NCBI RefSeq assembly: GCF_023375815.1
Contig: NZ_CP067412.1
Coordinates: 2,108,001 to 2,172,000 of the forward strand
Direction: 5' to 3'
Length of the DNA: 64,000 bases
Source of the DNA: Pseudomonas sp. HS6
Lineage (GTDB): Bacteria; Pseudomonadota; Gammaproteobacteria; Pseudomonadales; Pseudomonadaceae
The notes beneath the pieces are model-generated. The model was not told the DNA's origin, did no database searches, and was given only the letters and a program-made list of their open reading frames with translations. This document shows positions 19,254 through 42,702 of the stretch, in pieces. Numbering within the stretch: the stretch's first letter is position 1; each line of letters opens with the position of its first letter. Position numbers and translations under genes: made by a program.

Positions 19254-19655
19254 ATGAAACGCCAAGTCATCCTCAGCATTGCCCTTTCGGTTCTGGCCTT
19301 CAACGCATTTGCCGCCAAACCGGCCCACACCATGATCGCCGAAGGCGGTTCGGATCGCCTGATCGAACAGCGCGTCGCTGAAGGTGGTTCGGATCGTCTG
19401 CTGGAACGCCGTGTTGCCGAAGGTGGTTCGGATCGTCTGCAAGAACGCCGCGTCGCTGAAGGTGGTTCGGATCGCCTGCTGGAACGCCGTGTTGCCGAAG
19501 GTGGTTCGGATCGTCTGCAAGAACGCCGCGTCGCTGAAGGTGGTTCGGATCGCCTGCTGGAACGCCGTGTTGCCGAAGGTGGTTCGGATCGTCTGCTGGA
19601 ACGCCGCGTTGCCGAAGGTGGCTCGGATCGTCTGATCGAACGCCGCGTTGCCTGA
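19254..19655 (+). CDS. Secreted tandem-repeat protein (AEGGSDRLxERRV repeats)
   Basis: The 133-residue product has a signal peptide (MKRQVILSIALSVLAFNAFA) and then eight perfect or near-perfect 13-residue repeats of the form VAEGGSDRLxERR, where x is L, Q or I. There is no other domain. Related small repeat proteins occur in other Pseudomonas and, as I recall, some carry the doubtful label phage infection protein; I treat function as unknown. The gene has its own leader after the ECF/anti-sigma operon, a GTAAC element about 45 bases upstream, and a strong terminator behind it. Alternating acidic and basic residues suggest a charged, surface- or periplasm-exposed polymer-like chain. Confidence 0.82.
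   Translation: MKRQVILSIALSVLAFNAFAAKPAHTMIAEGGSDRLIEQRVAEGGSDRLLERRVAEGGSDRLQERRVAEGGSDRLLERRVAEGGSDRLQERRVAEGGSDRLLERRVAEGGSDRLLERRVAEGGSDRLIERRVA
19335..19646 (+). repeat. Eight tandem 39-base repeats inside a coding sequence
   Basis: Eight in-frame units of 39 bases, each encoding 13 residues, run head to tail. Units two to seven differ at few positions, with an alternation of CTGCTGGAACGC and CTGCAAGAACGC. Such near-identity suggests recent expansion by slippage or unequal recombination, so copy number may differ between strains. It is not a CRISPR array, because there are no spacers. Confidence 0.95.
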
Positions 19656-20821: not shown

Positions 20822-21005
20822 AACGCTCCATCCAGTCCGTTGAGCCGGGTTAACCCTACGCTCAATCGCAGGGTGCAGGATAGGACTGCGAGCCGGCGAC
20901 GCTGTTCCATCGTCCCGTTTGGCAGGCCGACTGGCCGCCCTCGCCTGCTGATCCATACTTGCTGCTGCACACTCAGTGGCAAAGGGCACGCGAGGAGGAC
21001 AGACC

Positions 21006-22547
21006 ATGAACCGCAGTGACGTTCTGATCATCGGCGCAGGCCCCACCGGACTGGTACTGGCCCTGTGGCTGAGCAAACTGGGCGTGCGCGTGCGCATCAT
21101 CGACAAGGCCTCCGCGCCGGGCACCACGTCGCGGGCGTTGGCCGTGCAGGCGCGCACCCTTGAGTTGTACCGGCAACTGGACCTGGCCGACGCGGTGGTG
21201 CGCAAGGGCCATCGGGTCGCGGCGGCGAACTTCTGGGTCAAGGGCAAGCCCGTGGCGCAGATGCCGCTCAATCGCATCGGCGAAGGCCTGACGCCCTATG
21301 CCTTTCTGGAAATGTTCCCGCAGGACGAACACGAGCGGCTGTTGATCGACCGTCTCGAAGACTACGACGTGACTGTCGAGCGCAACACAACGCTGGAGAG
21401 TTTTACGGAAAACAGCGATGGCCTAACCGCCCATTTACGCCTGCCGGATGGCGAGCAGGAAATCTGCCAGGCCTGTTACCTGGCCGGTTGTGACGGCGCC
21501 CGCTCGGTCGTGCGCAAAGCCCTCGACACCGGTTTTCCCGGTGGCACTTATCAGCAGATTTTCTACGTCGCTGACGTGCAGGCCAGCGGCCCGGCGCTCA
21601 ACGGCGAGTTGCATCTGGACCTGGATGAGGCGGATTTTCTCGCGGTGTTCCCGCTGGCCGGCGAAGGCCGCGCACGGCTGATCGGCACGGTGCGCGACGA
21701 GCGTGCGGATCGCGCCGAAACCCTGGAATTCTCCGATGTCAGCAGCCGCGCCATCGAGCACTTGAACGTGCACATCGAGGACGTCAACTGGTTCTCGACC
21801 TACCGCGTGCACCATCGCGTGGCGGATCACTTTCGCAAGGGCCGGGTCTTTCTGCTCGGCGACGCGGCGCATGTGCACAGCCCCGCCGGCGGTCAGGGCA
21901 TGAACACCGGCATCGGCGATGCGATCAACCTGGCGTGGAAACTCGCGGCGGTGCTCGGCGGCGGCGCCACGGCGAAGCTGCTCGACAGCTACGAAACCGA
22001 ACGCATTGCCTTCGCCCGGCGGCTGGTGTCGACCACTGACAAAGTCTTCAGTTTTGTGACTGCCGAAGGTCGCATGGCCGATCTGTTGCGCACGCGACTG
22101 GCGCCGTTCCTGATTCCGAAAATGGCGTCTTTTGAGACCAGCCGCGAATTCCTGTTTCGCACCGTGTCGCAAATCACCGTCAACTATCGAGGCATGCCGT
22201 TGAGTGAAGGCGTGGCCGGGCACGTCCACGGCGGCGACCGTTTGCCGTGGGCTCACGATGGCGAGGGTGACAATTACGAACCGCTGCGCAATCCATGCTG
22301 GCAGGTGCATGTGTATGGCGACACCAGCGACGAGATGATCGCCTGGTGCAATGAACATCACTTGCCGCTGCACGTGTTCGACTGGCGCCCGGCGTTTGAA
22401 TCGGCGGGACTGGGGCGCAACGGCTTTTATCTGCTGCGCCCGGACACCTATGTGGCGATTGCCGACAACAGCGCGGACCCGAAGGTGATCGAACGGTATT
22501 TCCGCGCCCACGGGATCAGATGTTATTTGCAGCAGCCCATTCAGTGA
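21006..22547 (+). CDS. FAD-dependent aromatic-type monooxygenase
   Basis: The 513-residue enzyme belongs to the p-hydroxybenzoate hydroxylase (PF01494) group, which uses NAD(P)H, FAD and O2 to hydroxylate aromatic or related substrates. It shows the FAD-binding GAGPTGLVLALWLSKLG near the start, the CDGARSVVRK (DG) motif about residue 160, and the GD motif LLGDAAHVHSPAGGQGMNTG about residue 285. The C-terminal part has a thioredoxin-like fold region seen in phenol hydroxylase relatives. GGAGG lies before ATG 21006. No catabolic neighbours are present, so the substrate is unknown. It ends three bases from the convergent ABC exporter gene. Confidence 0.9.
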   Translation: MNRSDVLIIGAGPTGLVLALWLSKLGVRVRIIDKASAPGTTSRALAVQARTLELYRQLDLADAVVRKGHRVAAANFWVKGKPVAQMPLNRIGEGLTPYAFLEMFPQDEHERLLIDRLEDYDVTVERNTTLESFTENSDGLTAHLRLPDGEQEICQACYLAGCDGARSVVRKALDTGFPGGTYQQIFYVADVQASGPALNGELHLDLDEADFLAVFPLAGEGRARLIGTVRDERADRAETLEFSDVSSRAIEHLNVHIEDVNWFSTYRVHHRVADHFRKGRVFLLGDAAHVHSPAGGQGMNTGIGDAINLAWKLAAVLGGGATAKLLDSYETERIAFARRLVSTTDKVFSFVTAEGRMADLLRTRLAPFLIPKMASFETSREFLFRTVSQITVNYRGMPLSEGVAGHVHGGDRLPWAHDGEGDNYEPLRNPCWQVHVYGDTSDEMIAWCNEHHLPLHVFDWRPAFESAGLGRNGFYLLRPDTYVAIADNSADPKVIERYFRAHGIRCYLQQPIQ

Positions 22548-22550
22548 GCG

Positions 22551-24689
22551 CTATCGACCAGAGCAATCATCGACCCTTTGCATGAGATCCGCGATGATTC
22601 GCCCTTGATCAAGCGTCACTACTCGCTGCGCCATTGCAATGGTTTGTGGGCGATGGGCAACCAGTATGCGGGTCATTGCTTCCTGTGTGATGGCGGCATT
22701 GACCCGTTGCTCGTTCCACACATCCAGGTGACTGGTGGCTTCGTCCAGCACCAGCAACCGGGGCGATCGGTACAATGCGCGAGCCAGCAGTATGCGTTGT
22801 CTCTGGCCGCCTGACAGTCCTGAACCCAGATCACCGACAAGCGTGTTGTATTTCATCGGCAGCGCCATGATTTCATCATGCACCGCCGCTTGTTCCGAGC
22901 TCCTGATGACTCGCCTTGGGTCCGGCTGAGCGTCGAAAAAGCAGATATTGTCCGAAAGCGTTCCGGTGAACAGTTGATCGTCCTGCATCACCGTTCCGGT
23001 CATCTGGCGATAGTTCCTCAACCCCAGACGCGTCAGCTCTACCCCGCCCAGAAAAATTTCCCCCTCGGTCGGTGTCAACAGCCCGAGTATCAACTTGAGC
23101 AAAGTCGTCTTGCCACAACCCGACACCCCCGCAATCGCAAGGCATTCCCCTGCCGGGATCCGCAAACTCAAATTGTCGATGACATTGGGTTCATCTTCCG
23201 CGTATCGAAAGGAGACATTGCGTAACTCAATATCCGCTTCTATCTCCCGAAGGTCGATTTCAGCTTCGTTCCCGTCCTTCTCCGGGGTCGTTAGCAAGAT
23301 ATCCGCGACGCGTTCACTGTGCAGGCGCAACATCCGCAACTCGAACGACTTGTCCAGCAACCCCGCAATACGCTGGCTGAATTGATCCTTGTAACTCAGA
23401 AACGCAAACAGCATACCGACAGAAAAATGGTTATCCATCACGGCCATTGCTGCCAACCAGACAACGACAATCCGTTCCCCATTAAAAATAAGAGTGCTGG
23501 CTGACTGGAACGATATTGTTATGCGAGCGATCCGTAACTCGGCATTGAGCTGATCCGCCAGGGCATTACTCCAGGCGCACCGTCGCTCCTGCTCGCGACC
23601 AAATAGCCTGATGCTTTGAATACCCCGCGCAGATTCGATAAACAGCGTGCCTTGTTTGGCCGCGCAGGCGATATGCATCGCTGTGGCTTCACGCTGCTTT
23701 TGAAAAACACCCCAACGCAACATTGCATAAAGCACCACGGCCGACAGACTGACAAATGCCAGCGTGGCGCTGTAGAAAAACATGACGACCAGCGTGGAAA
23801 ACACCAACAAACCGTCGATGATTCCTTCAATCAGTTGCGTGGTCAGTGTTTTCTGAATGATCTGTATAGCCTGAAATCGCGAAGAGATATCACCCAGATG
23901 CCGCTTCTCGAACCAGGGAACCGGTAAGCGCAGCAAGTGGGCAAAGGCATTGCCCAACCATTGATACCCCAAGTAGGCGGACAACGATGCGGCCATCCAC
24001 GATCGCAACCACCCCAATCCAGTTTGAAGCAGTACCAGCAACAAGAATCCGCTGCCCAGAACAGTCATCAGCCGGTGATCACCCGTGGTCAGCACGTCGT
24101 CCACGACCCATTGCAAATAGAACGGCAGCGCCAATGCAAGGGTTTGCAGCAGCCCTCCCATCAACAGCAACCTTGCCAGTCCGGGGTAGAGCCCATCGAC
24201 CTTGCCAAGCATGGATTGCCAGGAAATCCGTTGTTGAGACGGCACGCGTTCAAACAGTTCCCCGGGAGTCAACTCCAGTACCACGCCCGTGAAATGACTG
24301 GATGCCCGAGACCAGGAAATATTCCTTTTACCGTTCGCCGGGTCGTGGATCAGCAATCCGTTGCGTGTCACTTTTTCAAGCACTACGAAATGGTTCATGT
24401 CCCAGTGCAAAATACACGGCAACTTCAGACTCGAAAGTTGCGGCAACTCCACACGCAATGGACGGGACTGGAACCCGAGCCGTTGCGCCATTGATATCAG
24501 GCTTTTGAGGGTAGAACCCTTGAGAGAAACGCTGAAACGCTGACGAAGCAGCATCAGGTCAGTTGCACGCCCCCAATAGCGGGCAATCATGGCGAGACAC
24601 GCCAGGCCACATTCACTGGCTTCTGTCTGCAGTAAAACCGGCAATTTTCTGTTACCCCGGCGCAACGGGGTGTTTCCTTGTGTCGTCAT
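22551..24689 (-). CDS. Peptidase-containing ABC exporter (C39 domain, CvaB/LahT-like)
   Basis: This 712-residue inner-membrane protein should cleave a double-glycine leader and export the mature peptide. Residues 1-140 are a C39 peptidase with the catalytic Cys in SECGLAC (C27), His in MNHFVVL (H100) and Asp in IHDPANG (D116). A six-helix membrane domain follows (about 165-450), then an ATPase domain with GVSGCGKTT, LSGGQRQRILLARAL and LLVLDEATSHLD. All key residues are present, so it looks active. Its start overlaps the stop of the adaptor stub (ATGA). The double-glycine precursor on the opposite strand at 25124 is the obvious substrate. Confidence 0.94.
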   Translation of the reverse strand: MTTQGNTPLRRGNRKLPVLLQTEASECGLACLAMIARYWGRATDLMLLRQRFSVSLKGSTLKSLISMAQRLGFQSRPLRVELPQLSSLKLPCILHWDMNHFVVLEKVTRNGLLIHDPANGKRNISWSRASSHFTGVVLELTPGELFERVPSQQRISWQSMLGKVDGLYPGLARLLLMGGLLQTLALALPFYLQWVVDDVLTTGDHRLMTVLGSGFLLLVLLQTGLGWLRSWMAASLSAYLGYQWLGNAFAHLLRLPVPWFEKRHLGDISSRFQAIQIIQKTLTTQLIEGIIDGLLVFSTLVVMFFYSATLAFVSLSAVVLYAMLRWGVFQKQREATAMHIACAAKQGTLFIESARGIQSIRLFGREQERRCAWSNALADQLNAELRIARITISFQSASTLIFNGERIVVVWLAAMAVMDNHFSVGMLFAFLSYKDQFSQRIAGLLDKSFELRMLRLHSERVADILLTTPEKDGNEAEIDLREIEADIELRNVSFRYAEDEPNVIDNLSLRIPAGECLAIAGVSGCGKTTLLKLILGLLTPTEGEIFLGGVELTRLGLRNYRQMTGTVMQDDQLFTGTLSDNICFFDAQPDPRRVIRSSEQAAVHDEIMALPMKYNTLVGDLGSGLSGGQRQRILLARALYRSPRLLVLDEATSHLDVWNEQRVNAAITQEAMTRILVAHRPQTIAMAQRVVTLDQGRIIADLMQRVDDCSGR

Positions 24690-24943
24690 TTTGCCGGGTA
24701 CAGGTGAGCAACATCGCCGAGCCGCTGTGTCATGGCAACCGGTTCAACTTTGCGTCCATGCATATAACTTGCTCCCACTCCAAGCAGGACGAATATAAAT
24801 ACACCCAAACATAATGCCAGGCCGTCGAGAGACTTATCGATTTTTATATCGAGGTAATTCCCATAAAATCTTTCGGAGGCGAACGCTATCGCTTCCTTGC
24901 GAAAAAGAGAAGGCCTCACCCTATCTAATTTTTCAATACTCAC
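24686..24943 (-). pseudogene. N-terminal stub of a HlyD-type membrane fusion protein
   Basis: The frame from GTG 24943 (AGGGGG seven bases upstream) gives 85 residues: a cytoplasmic start with SLFRKEAIAF, one transmembrane helix (GLALCLGVFIFVLLGVG) and a short tail ending GDVAHLYPAK. Family members (CvaA/HlyD adaptors) have about 400 residues, with coiled-coil and barrel domains that link the ABC exporter to the outer membrane; these are missing here. An alternative GTG at 24952 adds three residues. The exact ATGA junction with the exporter gene suggests either an old internal deletion or a selected short form. Whether it is functional cannot be told. Confidence 0.65.
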
Positions 24944-25005
24944 CCACCACACCCCCTATATAACCAAAGTCTTTTCCGCCACACCAATACAATCTAAAGC
25001 CCGCA

Positions 25006-25035
25006 TTGACACTACAGGAATTCAATTTTTATAGT
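25006..25035 (+). promoter_or_regulatory. Probable sigma-70 promoter of the precursor peptide gene
   Basis: TTGACA at 25006-25011 and TATAGT at 25030-25035 are separated by 18 bases, a good vegetative promoter. It lies in the AT-rich 180-base gap between the divergent exporter unit and the peptide gene, leaving an untranslated leader of about 80 bases before ATG 25124. Confidence 0.6.
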
Positions 25036-25123
25036 CAACGCCCCTTAGACAGCCCGACACCGCGGCTATCGAAAGGCATCTTCAACTAACACAAACTCAA
25101 ACAACTCATTAGATAGGATATCA

Positions 25124-25300
25124 ATGAAAATTTTTCTGCGTGGTTTACCAGAAGGTCTTATAGGAAAGTCGGAAATAGAAGCCGAGTCTCTTGAGGCCGC
25201 CCTTCAGGACTATCCCGTTCTGGAACTCTTTCAGGAAGAACTTGAAGAAGTCAGTGGTGGCGCCTGCACTGCAAGAAGTTTTCGGGCATGCGATGGTTGA
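25124..25300 (+). CDS. Double-glycine precursor peptide of a putative RiPP or microcin
   Basis: This 58-residue gene starts at ATG 25124 with AGGA five bases upstream. Residues 1-46 form an acidic, helical leader ending ELEEVSGG, a textbook double-glycine cleavage site for C39 peptidase exporters such as the one encoded at 22551. The predicted core is ACTARSFRACDG (12 residues), with two AC pairs that could form a disulfide or other crosslink, and a C-terminal Asp-Gly. Directly downstream are an E1-like adenylating enzyme and a GNAT acetyltransferase, which suggests modification of the core or of its C-terminus. It is too short for ordinary gene calling and I know no named family for the core. 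Confidence 0.82.
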   Translation: MKIFLRGLPEGLIGKSEIEAESLEAALQDYPVLELFQEELEEVSGGACTARSFRACDG

Positions 25301-25336
25301 TGGCTGAACGACAAGCAATCTTCCTGGCTTGAACGC

Positions 25337-25374
25337 CAGCCCCACGGATTCGAAACAGAATCCGTGGGGGGCTG
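25337..25374 (+). terminator. Hairpin between precursor gene and modification genes
   Basis: CAGCCCCACGGATTC (25337-25351) pairs with GAATCCGTGGGGGGCTG (25358-25374), with two extra G as a bulge, and is followed by TTTCACTTTC. It would act as a leaky terminator or processing site that gives more precursor mRNA than enzyme mRNA, as is common in peptide antibiotic loci. Confidence 0.65.
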
Positions 25375-25407
25375 TTTCACTTTCTTGCCTAAACCATTTC
25401 GAGGCCG

Positions 25408-26196
25408 ATGCCCATGCAATTTGATTTCAAGGATGATCGATACAATCGACAGGAAAATATGCCGGAATGGGGGAAGGCCGGTCAGCAGAGGGTCTCGCAA
25501 GGTTCTGTTGCTGTAATCGGCGCCGGTGGCGTCAAGTCAACACTGCTGATGGCATTGGTTGCCGGTGGAATCGGAAAAATCGGGATTGTAGAGTTCGATA
25601 CGGTCGAATTATCCAACTTGAATCGTCAGTTGCTGTATCGCACTTCGGACATCGGCAGCGCCAAGGGGGTCGCCGCACAAAAAACGCTGGTCGACCTCAA
25701 CCCGGATATTGACATCCAGTTATTTGAAGAAAAAATAACACGACACAATGTCGACCGACTGCTCGATCAATATGAAGTCATTGTGGAAGGTGGCGACTCA
25801 CCCGATGGCAGAAACACCATCAATGAATATTGCCTGCGCACAAAAAAACCGATGATTCACGCCTCTGCCCAGTTCTCCTACGGTTATGTGTTCTCTATGA
25901 TCCCGGAACTTGAAAGTTCCTGCTTCACTTGTTTATTTCCAACCGACCACTCTCGAAAAGAACATACTGGCGCCGTACCGGTCAATGTTTTATCAACTTC
26001 CATCGCCGGAACCCTGGGTGCAGCTGAAGTATTCAAATGGTTTCTCGGACACAAAACAAACATGTACATCAATCGCAGACTGACATTCTCGTCACTGTTG
26101 CTGAGCGGCAAATTTCAAGTTGATGATATCCCCAGAAATCCCCATTGCAACTGCTGCTCGGCCTATTACCAAGAAGAATACCGTCATGCAATTTAG
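25408..26196 (+). CDS. ThiF/MoeB-like E1 adenylating enzyme of the peptide locus
   Basis: The product of 262 residues (260 from the better-spaced ATG 25414, nine bases after GAGG) is a ThiF/MccB-type enzyme that would activate a carboxylate by adenylation. It shows DRYNRQ at the start, the nucleotide loop VIGAGGVKS (about 36-44), VEFDTVELSNLNRQLLY with the conserved Asp and Arg, DIGSAKG, and two zinc knuckles, SCFTC and HCNCC. The loop is odd: the usual GxGGxGS has Lys instead of the last Gly. Visible AT-richness differs from its neighbours. By analogy with MccB or MoeB it may activate the precursor C-terminus, but the reaction is unknown. Confidence 0.88.
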   Translation: MPMQFDFKDDRYNRQENMPEWGKAGQQRVSQGSVAVIGAGGVKSTLLMALVAGGIGKIGIVEFDTVELSNLNRQLLYRTSDIGSAKGVAAQKTLVDLNPDIDIQLFEEKITRHNVDRLLDQYEVIVEGGDSPDGRNTINEYCLRTKKPMIHASAQFSYGYVFSMIPELESSCFTCLFPTDHSRKEHTGAVPVNVLSTSIAGTLGAAEVFKWFLGHKTNMYINRRLTFSSLLLSGKFQVDDIPRNPHCNCCSAYYQEEYRHAI

Positions 26197-26692
26197 ACAG
26201 CCTCGAACTTCGGACGCAGACGATCTGCTGCATTACTTCAACACACTTGTCCAACAGGACCCGGAACGGGTGGAAAGGCCCGAGGATGTCCGGTCGATCA
26301 ACCATGAAAAGGAAGTTCTCTGGATTGAGTCGCTGTTAGAAAAGGAAAAACAGCTGGATGCCGTGTCCCTGTGCATTTTGAATGAGTCGGCGATCATCGG
26401 TCTGGGCGAGATCGAACGTCGGCCCCGTTGGATCGAGCGCCATGTTGCAGAGATCCGGTTCGGGCTACTGCCTGATCATTTGGAAGAAGGTATTGAATTG
26501 GTGAAACGACTCGAAGAACGCGCCAGTGCCATCGGTATCGAGCTGTTGTATTACTTCCATTTGGCGACACAACGCCAGGGCATCGATATCGTCAGCGCTC
26601 GCGGGTTTGAGCTCGCAGGCACCCTGAAGCGTTACTACAAGAAAGCGGATGGCTATGTCGACCGGGTTTTCTATAGCAAGAAAATCAGTTGA
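26186..26692 (+). CDS. Divergent GNAT-type acetyltransferase of the peptide locus
   Basis: The 168-residue product starts inside the end of the E1 gene (11-base overlap), so the two are co-translated. The start MQFRQPRTSDADDLLHYFN, the SLCILNESAIIGLGEIERR strand pair, AEIRFGLLPDHLEEGIELVKRL and IDIVSARGFELAGTLKRYY follow the GNAT fold order. The usual acetyl-CoA pyrophosphate loop R/QxxGxG is replaced by LPDHLEEGIEL, so cofactor use is uncertain. By analogy with MccE of microcin C and other self-resistance acetyltransferases it could modify the peptide or protect the producer. A 12-base-pair hairpin follows. Confidence 0.78.
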   Translation: MQFRQPRTSDADDLLHYFNTLVQQDPERVERPEDVRSINHEKEVLWIESLLEKEKQLDAVSLCILNESAIIGLGEIERRPRWIERHVAEIRFGLLPDHLEEGIELVKRLEERASAIGIELLYYFHLATQRQGIDIVSARGFELAGTLKRYYKKADGYVDRVFYSKKIS

Positions 26693-26704
26693 AAGTACAA
26701 GCAG

Positions 26705-26734
26705 TGCCCGGCCATCACTGCCGATGGCCGGGCA
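26705..26734. terminator. Terminator between the peptide locus and hemB
   Basis: TGCCCGGCCATC and GATGGCCGGGCA form a perfect 12-base-pair stem with a six-base loop between two convergent genes. No long T tract follows on either strand, so termination strength is uncertain. Confidence 0.75.
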
Positions 26735-26740
26735 ACGTCT

Positions 26741-27715
26741 TCAAATGCCAGCCAATGCCAGGTCCATCGCAAAGTAGGTGAAGATCAGATCCGCACCCGC
26801 GCGCTTGATCGCGCCGAGGCTTTCGCGCACCACGCGATCTTCGTCGATGGCCCCGGCCTGGGCGCCGAACTTGATCATCGCGTACTCGCCACTGACCTGA
26901 TACGCCGACAGCGGCAGGTTCGAGGCTTCGCGGATGTCGCGGATGATGTCCAGATACGCGCCCGCCGGTTTGACCATCAGCGCATCGGCGCCTTCCTGCT
27001 CGTCGAGCAACGATTCGCGCAGGGCTTCGCGGCGGTTCATCGGGTTCATCTGATAGCTTTTGCGATCGCCCTTCAACGCGCTGCCACCGGCCTCGCGGAA
27101 CGGGCCGTAGAGCGCCGAGGCGAATTTGGTCGAGTAGGCCATGATCGGAATCTGCGTGAAACCGGCATCGTCCAGTGCACGACGAATCGCCCGCACCTGG
27201 CCGTCCATCGCCGCCGACGGTGCGATCACATCGGCACCGGCACGGGCTGCCGCCACGGCTTGTTTGCCGAGGATGATCAGGGTCTGGTCGTTGTCGACTT
27301 CATGGTTGTGCATCACGCCGCAATGGCCGTGGTCGGTGTACTCGCAGAAGCAGGTGTCAGACATCACGATCATTTCCGGCACGGCGTCCTTGGCGATCCG
27401 CGACATGCGCGACACCAGACCGTTTTCGCGCCAGGTGTCGCTGCCGTTGGCGTCGAGATGATGAGACACGCCAAATGTCATCACCGACTTGATCCCGGCC
27501 CGGGCGTAACGCTCGATCTCGCTGGCCAGTTTGCGCTCGGGGATGCGCATCACGCCGGGCATGCTCTTGATCGGTACGAAGTCGTCGATTTCTTCCTCGA
27601 CGAAGATCGGCAGCACCAGATCGTTGAGCGAAAACTCGGTTTCCTGGAACAGGCTGCGCAGGCTCGCATTGCGGCGCAGACGGCGTGGACGTGCTTCGGG
27701 GAACTGACTGGACAT
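26741..27715 (-). CDS. hemB: Delta-aminolevulinic acid dehydratase (cysteine/zinc-type)
   Basis: The enzyme joins two 5-aminolevulinate molecules to porphobilinogen in haem synthesis. The 324-residue product from ATG 27715 (GGAAAGG upstream) shows both active-site lysines, K197 in [14 protein letters not shown] and K249 in [11 protein letters not shown]. The metal loop reads [15 protein letters not shown], with cysteines 122, 124 and 132, the ligand set of zinc-dependent enzymes such as E. coli HemB. As known for P. aeruginosa, the main HemB is magnesium-dependent and lacks these cysteines, so this may be a second isozyme or a strain difference. It stands alone, convergent to the peptide locus. 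Confidence 0.95.
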
Positions 27716-27855
27716 GGGGCCTTTCCTGAAAACGGGCAGATGAGACGAAAGTCGTAGGGGGCGAAGCTTATGCCTTGCGGGGGACGGGGTACAAACCTGG
27801 ATCAATCAACAGTGCATTACCAAGGACGCAATAATCTGCGGGCGTCATCACTATT

Positions 27856-31941: not shown

Positions 31942-34900
31942 TCAGAAGCTTTGGCTGAAGCTGATGGTCATCGCGCTGTCGTTGTTGTCGCTGGACACTT
32001 GTCCCGAATAGCCGATGCCGAGCTTGCCGGTCGGGGTGACCTGGAAGTCCACGCCGGCTTCGAGCAGCGCACTGTCCTTGGCAATCGGCACGCCCTGGGT
32101 GCTGAACGATGCACCGCCATCGATGAAGGTCAGGTCGGCGTCAGGCTTGGTGTCGCCGTAGGCATGCCGCCAGCCGATCGCCGCACGTGGCGTAAGCTGG
32201 CTGCCATTGGCCAGGGTCACCAACTTGCCGATGCGCACACCGAGGGTCGAGTAGGTGATGTCCTGATCGGCATCGCCCTTCAGGCGCCCCACTCCGCCTT
32301 TTTCCTTGGCGGTATCGCTGTCGTAGTTGACGTAGGCCAGGCCGGCGAACGGTTCGATGGCCACGCCTGCCGCATTGATGGCATAACCCACTTCACCGAA
32401 CACCTGAGCACTGCGGGCATCGTAGTCAGCCTTCAAGCGGTCGTTGTAGCTGCCGACGCTGACGTCACGTTTGGTTTCGATGCTGTGCCAGCTGTAAGCC
32501 GCGCCGAGGCGAACGGCCAGTGCATCGAACTGCGAACTCAGGTAACCCGCCAGATGGTAGCTGTCGACCTTGGCATCGGAGTTGCGATCATGAGCGTTGA
32601 GGTTACTGCGGGTGTAACCCGCCGCCATCCCGGCGCGCCATTGATCGTCGAGCGCCTTGTCGGTGCCGAGCATGAAACCGCCGAGGCTGCGATCGACTTT
32701 CGCCGTGTTGCTGTCGCCGCCCATGTCACCCCAGGCACCGATGGCGCGGGCCCAGCCGACCATTTCACCGTGGCAACCGTTGCTGCTCAGTTGGGTGTCG
32801 CTCGGTGCCAGGGTCCGGCGTGGATCATCCGACGCGCTGCAAGTCGGCTGACGCATGCGGTCATTGACCGCTTCCCGCACGAAACGCGAATCCTCGAGAA
32901 CCGCGCTGGCGGTGCTGGCATGAATCTCCCCGGACAGGTTGTCGAAGGCCTGCCGTGCACCGGCCACGCTGAGGTTGATGATTTCATTCTGCAACGCAGC
33001 ACCCGCCGGGCCATTGCGCGTCAACGCCGAGGCGGTGTTGCTCTGGTTGCCGGTGGCGGCGATGTCGGCGAACGAGTTGCCGTTGCGACTGACCACCAGA
33101 TTCACCGCATCAGGGCTGTACACCAGTGTCGAGTCGAGGAACGCGTATTGCGGCAGATCGGCTGCGCTGAACGTACCGGTCACACCACCACCGGCAGTGA
33201 TCAGCGAATACACGGTGTTGCCGGTGAATGGCGCCAGACTGTTCACTTGCAGGCCACCGCCCAGAGTGGCCGTGCCACCGACCACCAGAGGCGTAGCCGT
33301 TGGCGAGCTGACTGTCAGGGCCAGTACACCGTCGGCAGCGTTGGTCAGGTTGCCTGCCACGCTCAGTGTGCCGGCCTCGGCACCCGAAGCCACCACACCG
33401 TGGTTGACCACCGAGCCGACGCTGCCGTTACCGCTCAAACCTGCACCATTGGCCACGGTCACTTGACCGCCCAGTGACGCCCGCGCCGCACGGCTGCCGA
33501 CTTGCAGCACGCCTTGATCCACCGACACAGTGCCACTGAACGGCTGATCGCCGGTCAACAGCAAGGTCCCGGCACCGCGTTTGGCCAGCGCGCCGGTACC
33601 GCTGAGGCGACCGTTGAACTTGCCATCGGCGACTTGCTGGAACACCAGCGATGCGTTGTCGATGATGTTGCCTTGCAGGCTGGTGGTGTTGCCGATCAGC
33701 GTACCGCCGCTAACGGTGGTGCCACCGCTGTAAGTGTTGGCAGCGGTGAGGATCAGCGTGCCGGCGTCGAGTTTCTCGATGCCGCCGGTGCCAATCAGCG
33801 GCACATCGATTTGCGCGCTGGCGCCGGCGTTCACGCGGATAGGTGCCGGCGTGCCGCCAGGTCCGTTGACCGGAGTCAGCGTGTCGCCGGCATCCGGCAC
33901 CAGGCTGTAGCCGTTGACGAGGAACTGCAGCCCGGTGAAGTTCTGATTGCCTTGAATGGTGACCGTACCACCCTGGCCGCCGAACACCGCGAACTGTCCA
34001 CTGGAGCCTTGCGCCTGGGTGCCGGTCGCGTCGGTCCAGTTGGTGCCTGGCCCCCACACACCGCTGCCACCACCGATAGTGCCGTCCGGATTGGTTTTGC
34101 CACCGTTCCAGAACTGCACCTCACCCGGCGCATTCTGCACCAACAGGTTGATCTGATTGGCCAGTGCGGTTTGCAGGGTCAGGTTGGCCACCGGGACCGG
34201 CAGGCTGCCGAAGACCAGACCATTGTTGGTCAAGCTGCCGCCATAGGTAAACAGTTGATAGACCCCGGTGCCGAAGCCGCCGGCGTTGCTGATGTTCAGC
34301 GTGCCGTCGAGGGTCAGGTTGCCGGCGACATGGACCACGGTTGTGGAGCTCGCGGCCGAGCCGAGGGTGAAGTCCAGATTCGTCCCCGAAGACAACGCCA
34401 GCGAACCGACGGATAACGGCGTCGTGCTGCCACCACCCAGCAGCGTCGCGCCGCTGGCCAGTTGTACAGCCCCGCCGAATTGGCCGCTGCCACCGATCTT
34501 TGCACCGCTGGCGACGTTGACGTTGGCGCTGTTGAGGACGCCGTTGACGTTGAGTGTGCCGGCCTGCACCGCGGTGTTGCCGGTGAAGGTGTTGTTGCCA
34601 GTCAGCAGCAAGGCGCCAGTGCCGGTTTTGTTCAGCGTACCGGCGCCCGTCAGATTGCCGGTGTAACTGCCGTCGCTGTTCTGCTCGAAGGTCAGCGTGG
34701 CGTTGTTGGTGATAGCGCCTTGCAGGCTGCTGGTGTCGCCACGGGTCGTGCCGCCGTTCAGCGTCGTGCCACCGCTGTAAGTGTTGGCCCCGCTGAGCAG
34801 GAGGTTGCCACTGCCGTTTTTCACCAGACTGCCGTTGCCGGTGATCGCGCCGATCAACGTAGTGTTCTGGTTGCCGGCCAGGGTCAGTTGCGCACCCAGG

Positions 34901-37900
34901 TTGATGGCGTTGGCCAGTTGCAGCGCAGAGGTACTGTCGAGGGTGCCGTTGCCCAGCACGCTGAGGGCGCCGCTGCTGATCGCGCTGTTGTTGCCCAGGA
35001 TCAGCGAACCGCCAGACAGTTGAGTACCGCCGGTGTAAGTGTTGCTGCCGTTGAGGGTCAGGCTCGATGCGCCGGTCTTGATCAGACTGCCGCTGCCGCT
35101 GACCACGCCGCCGAGAGCCAATGCGTTGGAGCCGGCGACGGTGAGTCCGCCGTTGAGCACCACCGCGTTGCCCAGGCTGACCGCCGTGTTGCTGTCCAGC
35201 GCCGTGCCGTTGGCGGCGGTCAACACGCCGGTGCCGAGGGCTGCGTTGTTGCCGACCACAATCTTGCCGCCGTTGAGCGCGGTGCCGCCGGTGTAGCCGT
35301 TGGCCGCGTTGAGCACCAGGGTGCCGGTGTCGTATTTGCCCAGTGTGCCGGCGCCATTGAGCGCGACGCCCACGGTCGCGGTGACGTTCGGGTCGACGCG
35401 CACAGTCGCATTGCCCAGCGAACCGTTGACCAGGTTCAACGACCCGGCCGTGCCGTTCTGCAGGCTGTAGCCATCGCTGACAAACTGCATGCCGGTGATG
35501 GTTTGCGCGCCGTTGACGGTCACGGTGCCGGCCGCGCCCTGGAACACCGCGAAGTTGTTGGTCCAGGCCTGATTGGTGGTGCCGTTGACGTCGGTCCAGT
35601 TGGTGGTGCCGGTGCCCCAGGTGCCGCTGCCGCCATCGACCGAACCGTTGGCGACGAGTTGGTTGCCGTCCCAGAACTGCACGGTGACGCCCGGTGCGGT
35701 GACCAACAGGTTGATCTGGTTGGCCAGCGCGGTTTGCAGGGTCAGGTCGCCCGGGGTGACGCTGCCCGGCACGGTGCCGATCAGCATGCCGTTGTCGGTC
35801 AGGCCGCCGGTGTAGTTGATCAACCGGTAAACGCCGCTGCCGAAGCCGCCGATGTCGCTGACGTTGAGGGTGCCGTCGAGGGTCAGGTTGCCGCCGACGT
35901 TGACCAGCGCGTTGCCGCCACCGGAAACCGGTGCACCGAGGCCGACGTCGAAGTTTGAGTTGGCGTTGAACACCAGCGAATTCACCGACAGCGTGCTGCC
36001 GGTGGCGCCGGCCAGATGACCGCCGTCCGCGACCGTCACCGCCCCGCCGAGCGAACCGCTGCCACCCAGGGTGCCGCCACTGTTGACCAGCACACTGGCG
36101 CTGTCCAGCGAGCCGTTTACGTTCAAGGTGCCGGCGTTGACCGTGGTGTTACCGGTCAGGCTGTTGATGCCGGTCAGGTTCAGCGTACCGGTGCCGAGCT
36201 TGTTCAATTCGCCCGTTCCGGTGAGTACACCGCTGAAAATACTGCTGCTGTTATTGGCGCCGATGCTCAGCGTGTTGCCGCCGCCGATCAGTGCGGTACC
36301 GCTGCCGGTCAGGCTGGCGAGGCTGCCGGAGCCGCCAAGGTTGAGGGTCGCCGCAGCGCCGAGATTGACCCCGGCGTTGTTGCCCAGTGCCGAGTTGCCC
36401 AGCGTGGTCAGGCTGCCGGATTGCACGTCGAAGGTGCCACTGAAGGTGTTGTTGCCGGACAGCGTCAGGTCGGCCAGACCGTTCTTGGTCAGGGTGCCCG
36501 CCCCGGCAATCACGCCACCCAGGGTCAGGTTGTTGTTGCCGGCCACGCTCAGGTTGGCATTGACGTTGACGTTGTTGGCCAGCACCAGTGGCGCACTGGT
36601 GTCGAGGGTCGACGCGCCCGCCACAGTCACCGCGCCGGAGCCCAGACCCGACGAGGTGCCAAGGGTCACGGTGCCGGTGTTCAGCGTGGTGCCGCCGCTG
36701 TAGGTGTTGATGCCATTGAGGGTCAGGTTGGACGCGCCGTCCTTGATCAGTCCGCCGCTGCCGCTGACCACGCCGCTGAGGGCAACATCGCTGTTGCCGG
36801 TGTTGGTCAGGTTGGCGTTGAGCACCACGTTGTTGCCCAGCGACACCGAGGTGTTGCTGTCCAGCGCCGAGGCACCGGCCACGGTCAGGTTGCCCAGACC
36901 CAGAGCGCCGTTGCTGCCGGCGGTCAGGGTGCCGGCATTGAGGGTGATGCCGCCGAGGAAGTTGTTGGCACCGCTGAGGATCAGGTTCGTCGCACCGTTC
37001 TTGGTCAGGCTGCCGGCGCCGTTGATGGCGCCGCTGAGTGTCAGATCGTTGCTGCCGACGATGCCGAGGTTGCCCGCCAGGTTGATCGCGTTACCCGCCG
37101 TGATGGCGCCGCTGGCATCCAGGGTGGTGCCGTTCGCCGCATTCAGGGTAGCCGAGCCCAGCGCGCTGTTCGACGCCAGAATCAGACCGCCCGCGTTCAG
37201 TGCCACCGGTCCGAGGAAGGCGTTGTTGCCGCCGAGGGTCAGACTGGCCGAACCGTTCTTGATCAAGCCGCCGGTGCCGGAAATGACACCGTTGAGGGTC
37301 AGGGCATTGCTGCCGAGCAGCGTCAGGTTGCCGTTGAGCGTGGCGGCGTTGGCCAGGGTCACGGCGGTGTTGCTGTCGAGTTGCGTCCCAGCATTGGCGA
37401 TCAGCGCGCCAGTGCCCAGGGCGGTGTTGCTGCCGACGACCAATGTGCCGCCGTCCAGTTGCGTGCCGCCGGTGTAGCTGTTGGCGCCGTTGAGCACCAG
37501 GGTGCCGGCGTCGAGTTTGTTGAGGATGCCGCTGCCGTCGATGTTCACGCCGACCGTGGCGGTCACGCCCGGATCGACCCGCATCGCCGTAGTGCCACCG
37601 CTGCCGTTGACGGCGGTCAGCAGACCCGACGCGCCGTTGACCACGTTGTAGCCATCGGTGAGGAATTGCATCCCGGTGAACAGTTGCGTGCCGTTGACCG
37701 ACACCGTGCCCGCCGTGCCCTGGAACACCGCGAAGTCGCCGGCCCAGGTCTGGTTCAGCGTGCCGTTGGAATTGGTCCAGTTGGTGCCGCCGGCAGTCCA
37801 TGTGCCCGTGCCGCCATCCACATTACCGTTCGGGATGGTCTGGCTACCGTCCCAGAAACGCAGGTTGGTATTCGGTGCCGACACGATCAGGTTGACCTGG

Positions 37901-40900
37901 TTACCCAGGGTCTGCACGAGGATGTCGCCGAGGGCATAACCCACCGGAACACCCGCCACGGTCAGGCCGTTGTCGGTCAGCGCACCGATGTAGTTGAACA
38001 AGCGGTAGACACCAACGCCGAAACCGCCGGCGTCGGTGACGTTGAGATTGCCGTCGAGGGTCAGGTTGCCGCCGATGTTCATCAGCGAGCTGGTCGATGG
38101 CGTGGCGAGGCTCGCGTCAACATTGCTGTTGGCCGTGAGGATCAGCGACGAGGTGGACAAGGTATTGCCCGAGGACAACGCCAGATGACCGCCGCTGTTG
38201 ATGGTGATGAAGCCAAGCGCCGAACCGGTACCCGTGAGGGTCGCACCGTTGTTGATGTTGAGTTGGGTGCTGGACAGCGCGCCGGTGAGATTCAGCGTAC
38301 CGGCGTTGACGTTGGTGTTGCCGGTAATGCCGCTGCTGCCGGTGAGGTTCAGCGTCCCGGTACCGACTTTGGTCAGAGCGCCGCTGCCGCCGAGGTCGCC
38401 GTCGAAGGTGCTGGTGTTGTTCACGCCGCCCACGGTCAGGGTGTTGCCGCCGGCGATCTGCACACTGCCGCTGCCGCTCAGCCCGTTGAGGCTGGCGCTG
38501 CTGTTGAGATACAGACTGGCACCGGCGCTGATGTTGGCGCCGGAAGTGTTGCCGAGCGCGCCGCTGCTCACGGTGGTGAGGCTGCCGGCGGCGATGTTCA
38601 GCGCACCGGTGAAGGTGTTGTTGCCGCTGAGCGTCAGGTCGCCGAAGCCGTCCTTGGTCAGGCTGCCGGCACCATCGATTACGCCGCTGAGGTTCAGGGT
38701 ATTGCTGCCGGCCAGAGTCAGACCGGCGTTGAGGGTGATGTTGTTGCCGACACTCATGCCGGTGCTGGTATCCAGCGTCGAAGCGCCGCCGACGGTCAAG
38801 CCGCCACTGCCCAACGCAGCGGCCGAGCCCAGTGTCAGCGTACCGGCATTGAGGGTGCTGCCGCCGCTGAAGGTGTTGGTGCCGTTGACGGTCAGGTTGG
38901 CCGCGCCGTTCTTGATCAACTGACCGGCGCCACTGATCACGCCGCCGAGGGTCAGATCCTGAGTACCACCGACGCTCAGTGCCGCATTGAGGACGACCGC
39001 GTTGGCCAGACTGGCCAGCGGTGAACTGCTGTCGAGCGTTGCCGCACCGCCGACGGTCAAGGCACCCGTGCCGAGTGCCGAGCTGTTGCCGACGGTCACC
39101 GTACCGGCGTTCAGGGTGGTGCCGCCGACATAGGTGTTGGTGCCATTGAGGTTCAGATTGGCCGCGCCGTTTTTCACCAGGCTGCCGGCACCGGCGACGG
39201 TGCCGGTGAGGGTCAGGTCTGCGCTGCCACCGACATTCATGGCCCCGGCGAGGTTGACCTGGTTGCCCAGCGTGACGGCAGTGTTGGTATCCAGCGTGGT
39301 GCCGGCCGCTGCGTTCAATGCGCCGCTGCCGATCGCGGTATTGCTGCCGACAATCAGCTTGCCGACGTTGAGTGCGGTGTTGCCAAAGTAGGTGTTGGCG
39401 CCGTTGAGGATCAAATCGGCGGGGCCGCTTTTGGTCAGACCACCGACACCGGAGACCACACCTGCGAGCGTCAGCGCATTGCTGCCGCCGATGGTCACGT
39501 TGCCACCGAGGTTGACGTTGTTGGCCAGGCTGGTCGCGGTGCTGGCGTCCAGCGTGGTGTTGTTGCCGGCGTTGAGTACGCCGGTGCCGAGGGCGGTATT
39601 GGAGCCGACGATCAGGGTCCCGGCGTTCAGCGACGTAGAACCGGTGTAGGTGTTGTTGCCGGTCAGGGTCAGGGTCGAGGAGCCAGTCTTGATCAGGTTG
39701 CTGCCACCACTGATCACGCCGCCGAGGGTCAGCGGATTGGCGCCACCGGCGGTGAGGTTGGAGTTCAGCGCAATCGCATTGTTCAGCGTCACGTTGGCGC
39801 TGCTGTTGAGTGAGCCGCCCGCACCGCCCACGGTCAGCGTGCCGGTGCCGAGTGCCGCGCCGTTGCCGACGGTCAGGCTGCCGGCGTTGAGCGCGGTGCC
39901 ACCGGTGAAGGTGTTGGCGCCGTTGAGGGTCAGGTTGGCCGTACCGTTCTTGATCAACTGACTGGCGCCGCTGAGCACGCCACCCAGGATCATGCCGTTG
40001 CTGCCGCCGATGGCCAGGTTGCCGTTGAGGGCGACGTTGTTGTTGAGGATGACCGAAGTGTTGCTGTCGAGCGTCGCGGCATTCGCGACGGTCAGGGCGC
40101 CGCTGCCCAGTGCGGCGGCGTTGCCGACGGTCAGGGTGCCGGCGTTCAGCGTGGTGCCACCACTGAAGGTGTTGGCGCCGTTGAGAATCAAGTTGGCCGC
40201 GCCGTTCTTGGTCAGCGCGCCGCTGCCGCTGACCACACCGCCGAGGGTCAGGTTGGCGTTGCCGGCGATGTTCAGGTTGCCGCCGAGGGCGACGGCGTTG
40301 CTCAGTGCCACGGTGGTGCTGGCGTCGAGGGTAGTGCCCGCCGCCGTGGTCAGTGCGCCGGTGCCGAGCGCGGTGTTGGAGCCGACGATCAGCGTCCCGT
40401 TGTTCAGCGCCGTGCCGCCGGAGAAGGTGTTGTTGCCGCTGAGGGTCAGGTTCGCGGTGCCACCCTTGATCAGGTTGCCGGCGCCACTGATGACACCGCT
40501 CAAGCCCAACGCCTGAGTGCCGCCGATGGTCAGTCCCCCCGCTAGCGCGACGGCGTTTGCCAGTGTCACCGCCGTGGTCGCATCCAGCGTTGTGCCGTTC
40601 GCCGCATTCAGCGCGCCCGTGCCGAGGGCGGTGTTGCTGCCGACGAACAAGGTCCCGCCGTTGAGCGCGGTGGTGCCGCTGTTGGTGTTGTTGCCGGTCA
40701 GGGTCAGGTTGGCGCTGCCGCTCTTGGTGATTGCGCCGGTGCCGGAAACGATGCCGGCCAGGGTCAGGGCATTGCTGCCGAGCACGTTCAACGCACCGGT
40801 GATGCCGACGTTGTTGGCCAGGGTCACGTTGCCGGTGCTGTCGAGGCTGGTGCCGTTGCTGGTGTTGAGTACACCGGTGCCCAACGCGTTGTTGTTGCCG

Positions 40901-42462: not shown

Positions 42463-42702
42463 GGGCAACTCCTTTCGTGGCCAATTTCGTCCTTGAAGGC
42501 GTGCAACTGCGGCAAGATCCCACACGCGTATCAAGCGTATGACGGTCATCAGATAAACCGTCTATTCCAGACACACGCTAGTTGATGCCCTGCGATGGGG
42601 CATTGATTAAATAGTGTTAATACTTTTGTGCGATAAGCCGCTCAAGCAATACTCCGAGCGGTTCTGAGCAAGGGTTTGAGGTTTTTTGCAGGCCAAAAAA
42701 AA

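Follow-up and report, generated by a model that had tools for sequence, protein, structure and literature searches.

A stretch of 64,000 nucleotides from Pseudomonas sp. HS6 (contig NZ_CP067412.1, positions 2,108,001 to 2,172,000; the whole stretch is called the window below) contains a peptide cluster built around a ThiF/E1-like adenylating enzyme (E1). The cluster, first noticed in a preliminary description of the sequence, is real: it is a small, rare and compact AT-rich island of five open reading frames (ORFs) in Pseudomonas. On balance it is probably a horizontally acquired cluster for a ribosomally synthesized and post-translationally modified peptide (RiPP) of the ThiF type, in which the leader would guide adenylation of the peptide, a side chain would capture the activated carboxylate, a C39 peptidase would remove the leader, and the product would be N-acylated and exported.

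Four loci were compared, namely the HS6 window, L014 (genome G202), L007 (a named Pseudomonas record) and L015 (genome G017). In all four, genes for a 58-residue precursor, the E1, a GNAT acetyltransferase and a C39-peptidase ATP-binding cassette (ABC) exporter were adjacent. The preliminary description had expected a conserved small gene next to homologues of the E1, and a conserved precursor did accompany all four close homologues. The ThiS/MoaD-like gene that would have pointed elsewhere was not seen in the ORF lists inspected by eye for three of the four loci.

Layout of the cluster

The five ORFs lie between a gene resembling a flavin adenine dinucleotide (FAD) monooxygenase (20976-22547) and hemB (26741-27805), both flanks being named by eye. 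Every part named in the preliminary description (double-glycine precursor, ThiF-like E1, GNAT and C39 exporter) was recovered among the ORFs and by Pfam searches. Its interval, 24686..26692, does hold the precursor, E1 and GNAT genes, but the exporter gene (22551-24689) lies outside, and the left end of that interval (24686-24952) is a separate small ORF for the N-terminal stub of a membrane-fusion protein (MFP). The features are as follows.

22551..24689, minus strand: C39-peptidase ABC exporter, 712 amino acids (Pfam PF03412, PF00664, PF00005)
24686..24952, minus strand: stub of an HlyD/CvaA-type MFP, 88-amino-acid ORF (hhalign; likely start GTG at 24943)
25006..25035, plus strand: predicted promoter, TTGACA-18-TATAGT (motif kept in 4/4 loci; 11/12 consensus matches)
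25124..25300, plus strand: precursor peptide, 58 amino acids, leader 1-46 and core 47-58, ACTARSFRACDG (conserved in four loci)
25340..25369, plus strand: predicted hairpin with a 12-bp stem, possible attenuator (strong stem predicted in 4/4 loci)
25408..26196, plus strand: ThiF/E1-like adenylating enzyme, 262 amino acids, without a RiPP recognition element (RRE) domain (PF00899)
26186..26692, plus strand: GNAT acetyltransferase, 168 amino acids, overlapping the E1 stop (PF13420)

The stub ORF overlaps the exporter start (ATGA). The likely start of the E1 is its second ATG, at 25414, a start kept in the two more distant of the homologues. The GNAT start, at 26186, lies inside the 3' end of the E1 gene; this overlap recurs in L014 and L007, and in L015 4 bases separate the two genes. 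An Rfam search of 22400-26900 gave no match at E<=0.1, and searches of the literature found no description of the E1/precursor locus.

The precursor and its distribution

The cluster is rare. The E1 was found in 3 of 398 genomes of the genus (E<=1e-40), and a separate search with a precursor profile returned the same three; L007 is one further locus, obtained from a contig scan outside that genus sample, and its cluster is flanked by the same two genes as that of the window, at 90-97% protein identity. Among 194 relatives, two E1 matches were found at E<=1e-45, both in loci already known. A class-wide E1 profile search found matches at E<=1e-35 in 92 of the 369 genomes, counting that of the window, with the next best at 173 bits versus 579 for the window's E1, a background that was taken to be MoeB/ThiF-like. 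In plasmids, 197 records matched the E1, all below 60% identity; among the 30 plasmid matches listed, those with a feature name were called MoeB, ThiF or HesA/MoeB/ThiF. The contig scan also yielded six other E1 matches (L008-L013) at 32-41% identity, around which no double-glycine precursor was seen by eye among ORFs of at least 40 amino acids, the choice of ORFs being poor in two Mycobacteriaceae loci. The precursor itself had no match in plasmids, phages or viral contigs, and in the class it was matched in 3 of 340 genomes at E<=0.01, one being the window's own. The other two were weak and were dismissed: one (1.5e-4) lies within an open frame of 1192 amino acids, and the other (0.0085) is an 87-amino-acid frame whose product is another kind of leader peptide, of VSAG type. 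Being few and related, the four loci do not count as four independent events.

Precursors of the other loci were 79-100% identical to that of the window, with 45 of 58 residues invariant across the four. Nonsynonymous divergence was 0.05-0.12 in five of the six pairs and 0.0 in a near-identical pair. Synonymous divergence was 0.08 for the latter and 2.7 for one other pair, and for the remaining four it was too high to compute. Low nonsynonymous versus high synonymous divergence, together with an intact frame in four loci, indicates that the precursor is a real gene under strong purifying selection.

The precursor begins with a conserved leader start (MKIxLRGLPEGLIGKSE...), and its C-terminal part reads EELEEVSGG|ACTARSFRACDG, the leader ending in VSGG and the core having 12 residues. 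Residues at the cleavage site (L-12, E-8, L-7, V-4, S-3, G-2 and G-1) follow the standard double-glycine consensus. The peptide ends in CDG and the core lacks Lys. Invariant nucleophile candidates in the core are Cys48, Cys56, Ser52, Arg51 and Arg54; Thr49 is unlikely to be the capturing residue because it is Asn in L015, the sole core change (third residue). The preliminary description had looked for a conserved leader with a variable core. Conservation of the leader was borne out (34 of 46 positions invariant), but variability of the core was not seen: 11 of its 12 positions were invariant, making it more conserved than the leader. So frozen a core points away from a diversifying toxin and towards one fixed target or receptor, as for a signal or a specific inhibitor, although the sample is small. 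An AlphaFold2 model of the precursor from the four-row alignment had a strand-strand-helix-strand order but was too poor to use (mean predicted local distance difference test score, pLDDT, 59.9), and a fold search with it gave three matches at E<=10, none meaningful (best, 7.4) and none at E<=0.001.

The E1 enzyme

PF00899 (ThiF) matched residues 12-248 of the 262-residue E1 at E=2.7e-56. The closest structures by sequence were ThiF (2.5e-31) and MoeB (1.1e-24), followed by ubiquitin-type E1, Uba4, MccB (3h5a, 1.4e-21) and PaaA (4.3e-17). Structures of MoeB and ThiF align from E1 residue 10, consistent with a short N-terminus of the MoeB/ThiF type. No RRE was found on the N-terminus of the E1, where only PF00899 matched and there is no room for a domain of ~90 residues. 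Scores against the NCBIfam models were under the cut-offs, at 156 of 275 bits for ThiF and 143 of 266 bits for MoeB.

For residue comparison and a tree, the four E1s were set against 38 other ThiF-family sequences (29 matches from the class search, three from the window's own genome and six from the contig scan); MccB, PaaA, GrcB, EnfB and IndF were not included in the tree. Counterparts of R14, N70, R73 and K86 and the four Zn cysteines were kept in all four E1s. Four other positions differed. Position 43, in the ATP loop, was K in 4/4 versus G in 37/38 others; position 45 was T versus P in 33/38; position 130 was D in two and E in two, versus D in 38/38; and position 187 was T in 4/4 versus C in 34/38. 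In the structure alignments both ThiF and MoeB have a Cys opposite position 187, and in ThiF this Cys acts in sulfur transfer. Its absence from the four E1s is moderate evidence that sulfur is not transferred and that a peptide nucleophile captures the acyl-adenylate directly. The stem leading to the four E1s has a length of 3.67 changes per column, against a median of 0.69 for end branches, and its neighbour in the tree is also a long branch; the four are a strongly diverged lineage, the origin of which the tree did not settle. An AlphaFold2 model of the E1 from the four-row alignment was too poor to use (mean pLDDT 42.7).

The exporter and the membrane-fusion stub

The exporter, 69-93% identical in the three other loci, carries a C39 domain (PF03412, 1e-36) in addition to PF00664 and PF00005, and by eye retains the catalytic Cys, His and Asp of C39 peptidases. 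Its best NCBIfam model was NHLM_micro_ABC1, at 507 bits and under the 853 cut-off. The nearest exporters outside the cluster were 43-51% identical and came from 14 loci (L106-L119) in 13 of the 199 genus genomes searched, ten weaker matches (32-34%) being left out. A full-length MFP and an outer-membrane factor were found at 14/14 of these loci versus 0/4 E1 loci (E<=1e-3, stretches of 15-26 kb), with weaker outer-membrane-factor matches in L116-L118 (1e-15 to 1e-18). Relatives of the precursor, E1 and GNAT were found by tblastn in none of the 14.

The stub ORF spans 88-115 codons in the E1 loci (85-104 amino acids by likely starts) and comprises a short N-terminal tail, one apparent transmembrane segment and a short tail beyond. 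It had no Pfam or NCBIfam match. Alignment of the four stubs with ten full-length MFPs in hhalign (E=7e-5, probability 62%) covered the N-terminus only and ended before the periplasmic part. Homologues of the stub were found by tblastn in L014 and L007 but not in L015, whose stub, the most diverged, was recognized from where it lies and how it aligns. Elsewhere in three producer genomes, a search turned up only distant HlyD-type proteins (best, 1.2e-12), and no outer-membrane channel was present at any of the four E1 loci, a result that does not extend to the rest of the genome, which was not searched for one. Because the cluster holds only an MFP stub and no outer-membrane channel, periplasmic delivery is possible; the peptide may go no further than the periplasm, unless the stub recruits a different system.

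The GNAT

The GNAT matched PF13420 at 1.1e-5 (26.0 bits, just over the 24.3 cut-off) and was 67-90% identical in the three other loci. Its sole match among solved structures, 2ge3 at E=0.074, is too distant to name a substrate. In microviridin a GNAT acetylates the core N-terminus and does not require the leader (PMC7823629), and for a RiPP of P. fluorescens PMC12636437 proposes GNAT action after leader removal. With these precedents and a core lacking Lys, the simplest reading of the GNAT is probably N-terminal acylation after leader cleavage. A role in self-immunity, as in MccE, is the alternative.

Regulation, composition and mobility

TTGAC[AT]-18-TATAGT was found upstream of the precursor in 4/4 loci. 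Promoter-like sites were not in excess across the region (4 versus 3.4 in shuffles). By eye, the precursor promoter lies within an imperfect dyad, TTGAC...GTCAA (window 25006-25038), in all four loci, and the dyad is possibly an operator shared by two divergent operons. The strong hairpin predicted between the precursor and E1 genes at every locus was not listed as an intrinsic terminator in the scan; it could limit the amount of enzyme relative to precursor.

The block had been described as AT-richer than its surroundings and as acquired DNA, and both statements held. Its GC content is 0.43-0.54 by element, versus 0.63 and 0.62 in the flanking genes. When hemB DNA was searched in 38 genomes, 12 besides the window's own (L051-L062) had a match covering most of the gene. 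An empty site is present in five, L051-L055, with the FAD gene beside hemB and ~5-130 bases between the stops; the remaining seven have no FAD gene in the stretch examined. In L015 neither flank of the window is present, and the block adjoins norC- and norB-like genes (by eye). The empty site in relatives and the different location in L015 suggest that the block moves as a whole. Its edges showed no transposase, integrase or repeat, although no search was aimed at these.

Proposed pathway and alternatives

From sequence we infer each step from adenylation onward. The E1 would bind the long conserved leader and, with Mg-ATP, adenylate the carboxylate of C-terminal Gly58. With the usual acceptor Cys missing from the E1, the acyl-adenylate would be attacked directly from within the core, most likely by the side chain of Cys48 or Cys56, and loss of water would leave a thiolactone macrocycle. 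The ring would span 11 residues if closed by Cys48 and three if closed by Cys56, and Cys48 is preferred for this reason. In a variant, Asp57 would be activated and an imide formed at Asp-Gly, as EnfB makes an imide. The C39 domain would then cut after Gly45-Gly46, the GNAT would acylate the freed N-terminus, and the ABC protein would carry the peptide over the inner membrane, delivery perhaps ending in the periplasm. The preliminary description had proposed that the E1 activates the C-terminus for thiocarboxylate, nucleotide or macrocycle formation. The macrocycle remains the best of the three; the thiocarboxylate is less likely given Thr for Cys187, and the peptide-nucleotide is less likely given a core ending in Asp-Gly, not Asn.

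Several points weigh against this pathway. Neither Pfam nor NCBIfam detected an RRE in any of the five cluster proteins, whereas the characterized RiPP E1s carry one, and this leaves binding of the leader unexplained. The core ends in Asp-Gly, not Gly-Gly, whereas E1 partners such as MoaD end in Gly-Gly. Loss of Cys187 is only moderate evidence, since that position is dispensable in E. coli MoeB, and K43 and D/E130 could mean altered or reduced use of ATP. The exporter frame of L014 (4565-6698) is interrupted near codons 521-536, which may be a sequencing error or decay. From the sequences compared, the core is not variable between species as many antibiotics are, four related loci are too few to read covariation of core and enzyme, and the structure predictions for E1 and precursor gave no help.

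Two alternatives would have the E1 act on the peptide in another way. If the cluster were a Trojan horse like microcin C, the C-terminus of the peptide would receive a nucleotide through the E1, and immunity would come from the GNAT, as from the C-terminal domain of MccE, which acetylates processed McC (PMC12250964); E1, GNAT and exporter do mirror MccB, that domain and an exporter, and MccB is among the structural relatives of the E1. We nevertheless regard this as unlikely, given that ThiF and MoeB structures match better than MccB, that there is no RRE or peptide clamp, that a 58-residue peptide ending in Gly stands in place of an Asn-ending heptapeptide, and that no other Mcc-type tailoring gene was seen in the block by eye and the exporter is a C39 ABC protein. 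A sulfur-carrier role for the precursor is very unlikely. In that case the precursor would be ubiquitin-like or sulfur-carrying, its C-terminal Gly would be turned into a thiocarboxylate, and the exporter would serve another process. An E1 of MoeB/ThiF type, the terminal Gly and the strand-strand-helix-strand order of the low-confidence precursor model would suit such a carrier. Against them stand the Thr at position 187 in 4/4 loci, E1 scores far under both the ThiF and MoeB cut-offs, a double-glycine site directly before the core with a C39 exporter at every locus and, as a weak point, the lack of a fold match at E<=0.001 for the poor model.

A plain double-glycine peptide, disulfide-bonded and left unmodified by an E1 and a GNAT that act elsewhere, is improbable: the E1 and GNAT genes are co-directional with the precursor, they overlap or nearly so (4 bases apart in L015), they stay with it in all four loci, including one at a different genomic place, and the 12-residue core is far shorter than class II microcins. 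In favour of this view, a periplasmic disulfide could link the two invariant Cys, and class II microcin-type clusters have the exporters closest to this one. That the E1 acts on a small modifier as part of a ubiquitin-like conjugation or anti-phage system seems barely credible. The E1 does give weak matches to PADLOC E1-E2 models (best, 2.7e-16), but the listed ones are confined to the generic E1 portion of these larger models, inspection by eye showed neither an E2 nor a deubiquitinase gene near three of the four loci (the window, L007 and L015), and the GNAT and precursor had no PADLOC match.

The leader-guided adenylation pathway can be carried further, to a proposal that we hold to be rather doubtful. 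An RRE-less E1 of MoeB/ThiF type, with Lys for the ATP-loop Gly, would have been recruited independently of the known RiPP E1s; docking would fall to the leader itself, as the reduced form of a ubiquitin-like element; and a C39 exporter with a stub MFP would send to the periplasm an invariant product, an N-acylated signal or inhibitor of thiolactone type. If the E1 does act on the precursor, RRE-less MoeB/ThiF-type enzymes would be a new place to seek peptide-modifying E1s, and the cluster would be a minimal five-gene system for how an RRE-less E1 finds its leader. Published mining of E1 RiPPs filtered on RRE-fused enzymes (PMC12150305), and such a filter would pass over this cluster. The truncated MFP, kept in 4/4 loci, raises the question of whether some C39 exporters serve the periplasm and not the outside, and the near-invariant core means that exact product masses can be sought. 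For the cleaved core the calculated [M+H]+ values are 1257.546 (linear), 1255.531 (disulfide), 1239.536 (minus water), 1299.557 (acetyl), 1281.546 (minus water plus acetyl), 1273.523 (thiocarboxylate) and 1586.599 (AMP adduct).

Other features

Elsewhere in the window, a 133-amino-acid ORF (19254-19655, plus strand) has a signal-like start, about eight 39-bp repeats (AEGGSDRLLERRV) and no Pfam match, and a 3535-amino-acid ORF (31942-42549, minus strand) has many repeats and, by eye, an autotransporter-like C-terminus. Among the related exporter loci, L116 (5239-6907) and L117 (5372-7210) encode Gly-rich peptides with double-glycine-type leaders (VAGA, VAGG); their neighbours are a C39 exporter and an oxygenase of JmjC_2 type, which in L117 is ROXA-like. 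The peptides are candidate hydroxylated microcin-type peptides of Pseudomonas. In L107 (10349-12193), a single set of exporter, MFP and outer-membrane factor has two neighbours, a microcin-like double-glycine peptide and an M10/RTX protein of serralysin type.

Comparison with known systems

ThiF-like enzymes are known to adenylate a peptide carboxylate that is then captured by a nucleophile of the peptide, giving a thiolactone with GrcB, an indolylamide with IndF and an imide with EnfB; these and pantocin are established E1-type RiPPs beyond microcin C (PMC12250964 and PMC12150305), and PMC12250964 already notes an N-acetyltransferase encoded next to a ThiF-type RiPP enzyme. The present combination, which the preliminary description matched to no class, thus has precedents. 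Like the clusters of GrcB, EnfB, IndF and PaaA (pantocin A), the Pseudomonas cluster has a small precursor adjoining a ThiF-fold enzyme and a transporter, with the enzyme next to a conserved precursor at 4/4 loci; carboxylate adenylation and capture within the peptide would be shared. The enzymes of those clusters have an N-terminal RRE, whereas the Pseudomonas E1 has none. MccB, PaaA, GrcB and EnfB carry an RRE, IndF came from a search for RRE-fused enzymes, and the RRE distinguishes PaaA and MccB from MoeB and ThiF (PMC12250964 and PMC12150305). Since this feature is missing, the cluster is best read as a variant of the ThiF-type RiPPs, not a strict member. The described GRC, enterofaecin and ind examples are Gram-positive, whereas here a double-glycine leader and C39 exporter occur in Pseudomonas.

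With microcin C (MccA/MccB/MccE) the cluster shares an E1-type enzyme, a GNAT and an exporter. The short Asn-ending precursor and the RRE clamp of MccB are replaced by a 58-residue precursor with a long leader and a 12-residue core ending in CDG, an RRE-less MoeB/ThiF-like E1 and a peptidase-bearing ABC exporter. A conserved leader motif, a GNAT and an ABC exporter (with a C39 domain in some clusters) are shared with microviridin (MdnA-E), the rings of which are formed by ATP-grasp ligases; the E1 would take that place here, no ATP-grasp ligase having been found among the five proteins (Pfam) or the neighbouring ORFs (by eye). Class II microcin-type clusters of Pseudomonas (L106-L119) have the similar exporters described above and, by eye, double-glycine-type peptides in several of the 14. 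The double-glycine leader and C39 ABC exporter of that class are present here, but an MFP and outer-membrane factor encoded with the exporter are not. Lacking these secretion partners and having a 12-residue core, the cluster is, judged by its gene content, not a class II microcin, nor is it microcin C.

The bacterial E1-E2 defence systems share only generic E1 matches with it, their E2 or deubiquitinase partner not being seen by eye beside three of the four loci. The MoeB/ThiF sulfur-carrier E1s share the fold, the Zn cysteines and most ATP-site residues. The four E1s differ from them in Thr for Cys187, Lys for Gly43 and D/E for D130, in a long stem branch, in scores under the NCBIfam cut-offs and in having no ThiS/MoaD gene seen nearby.

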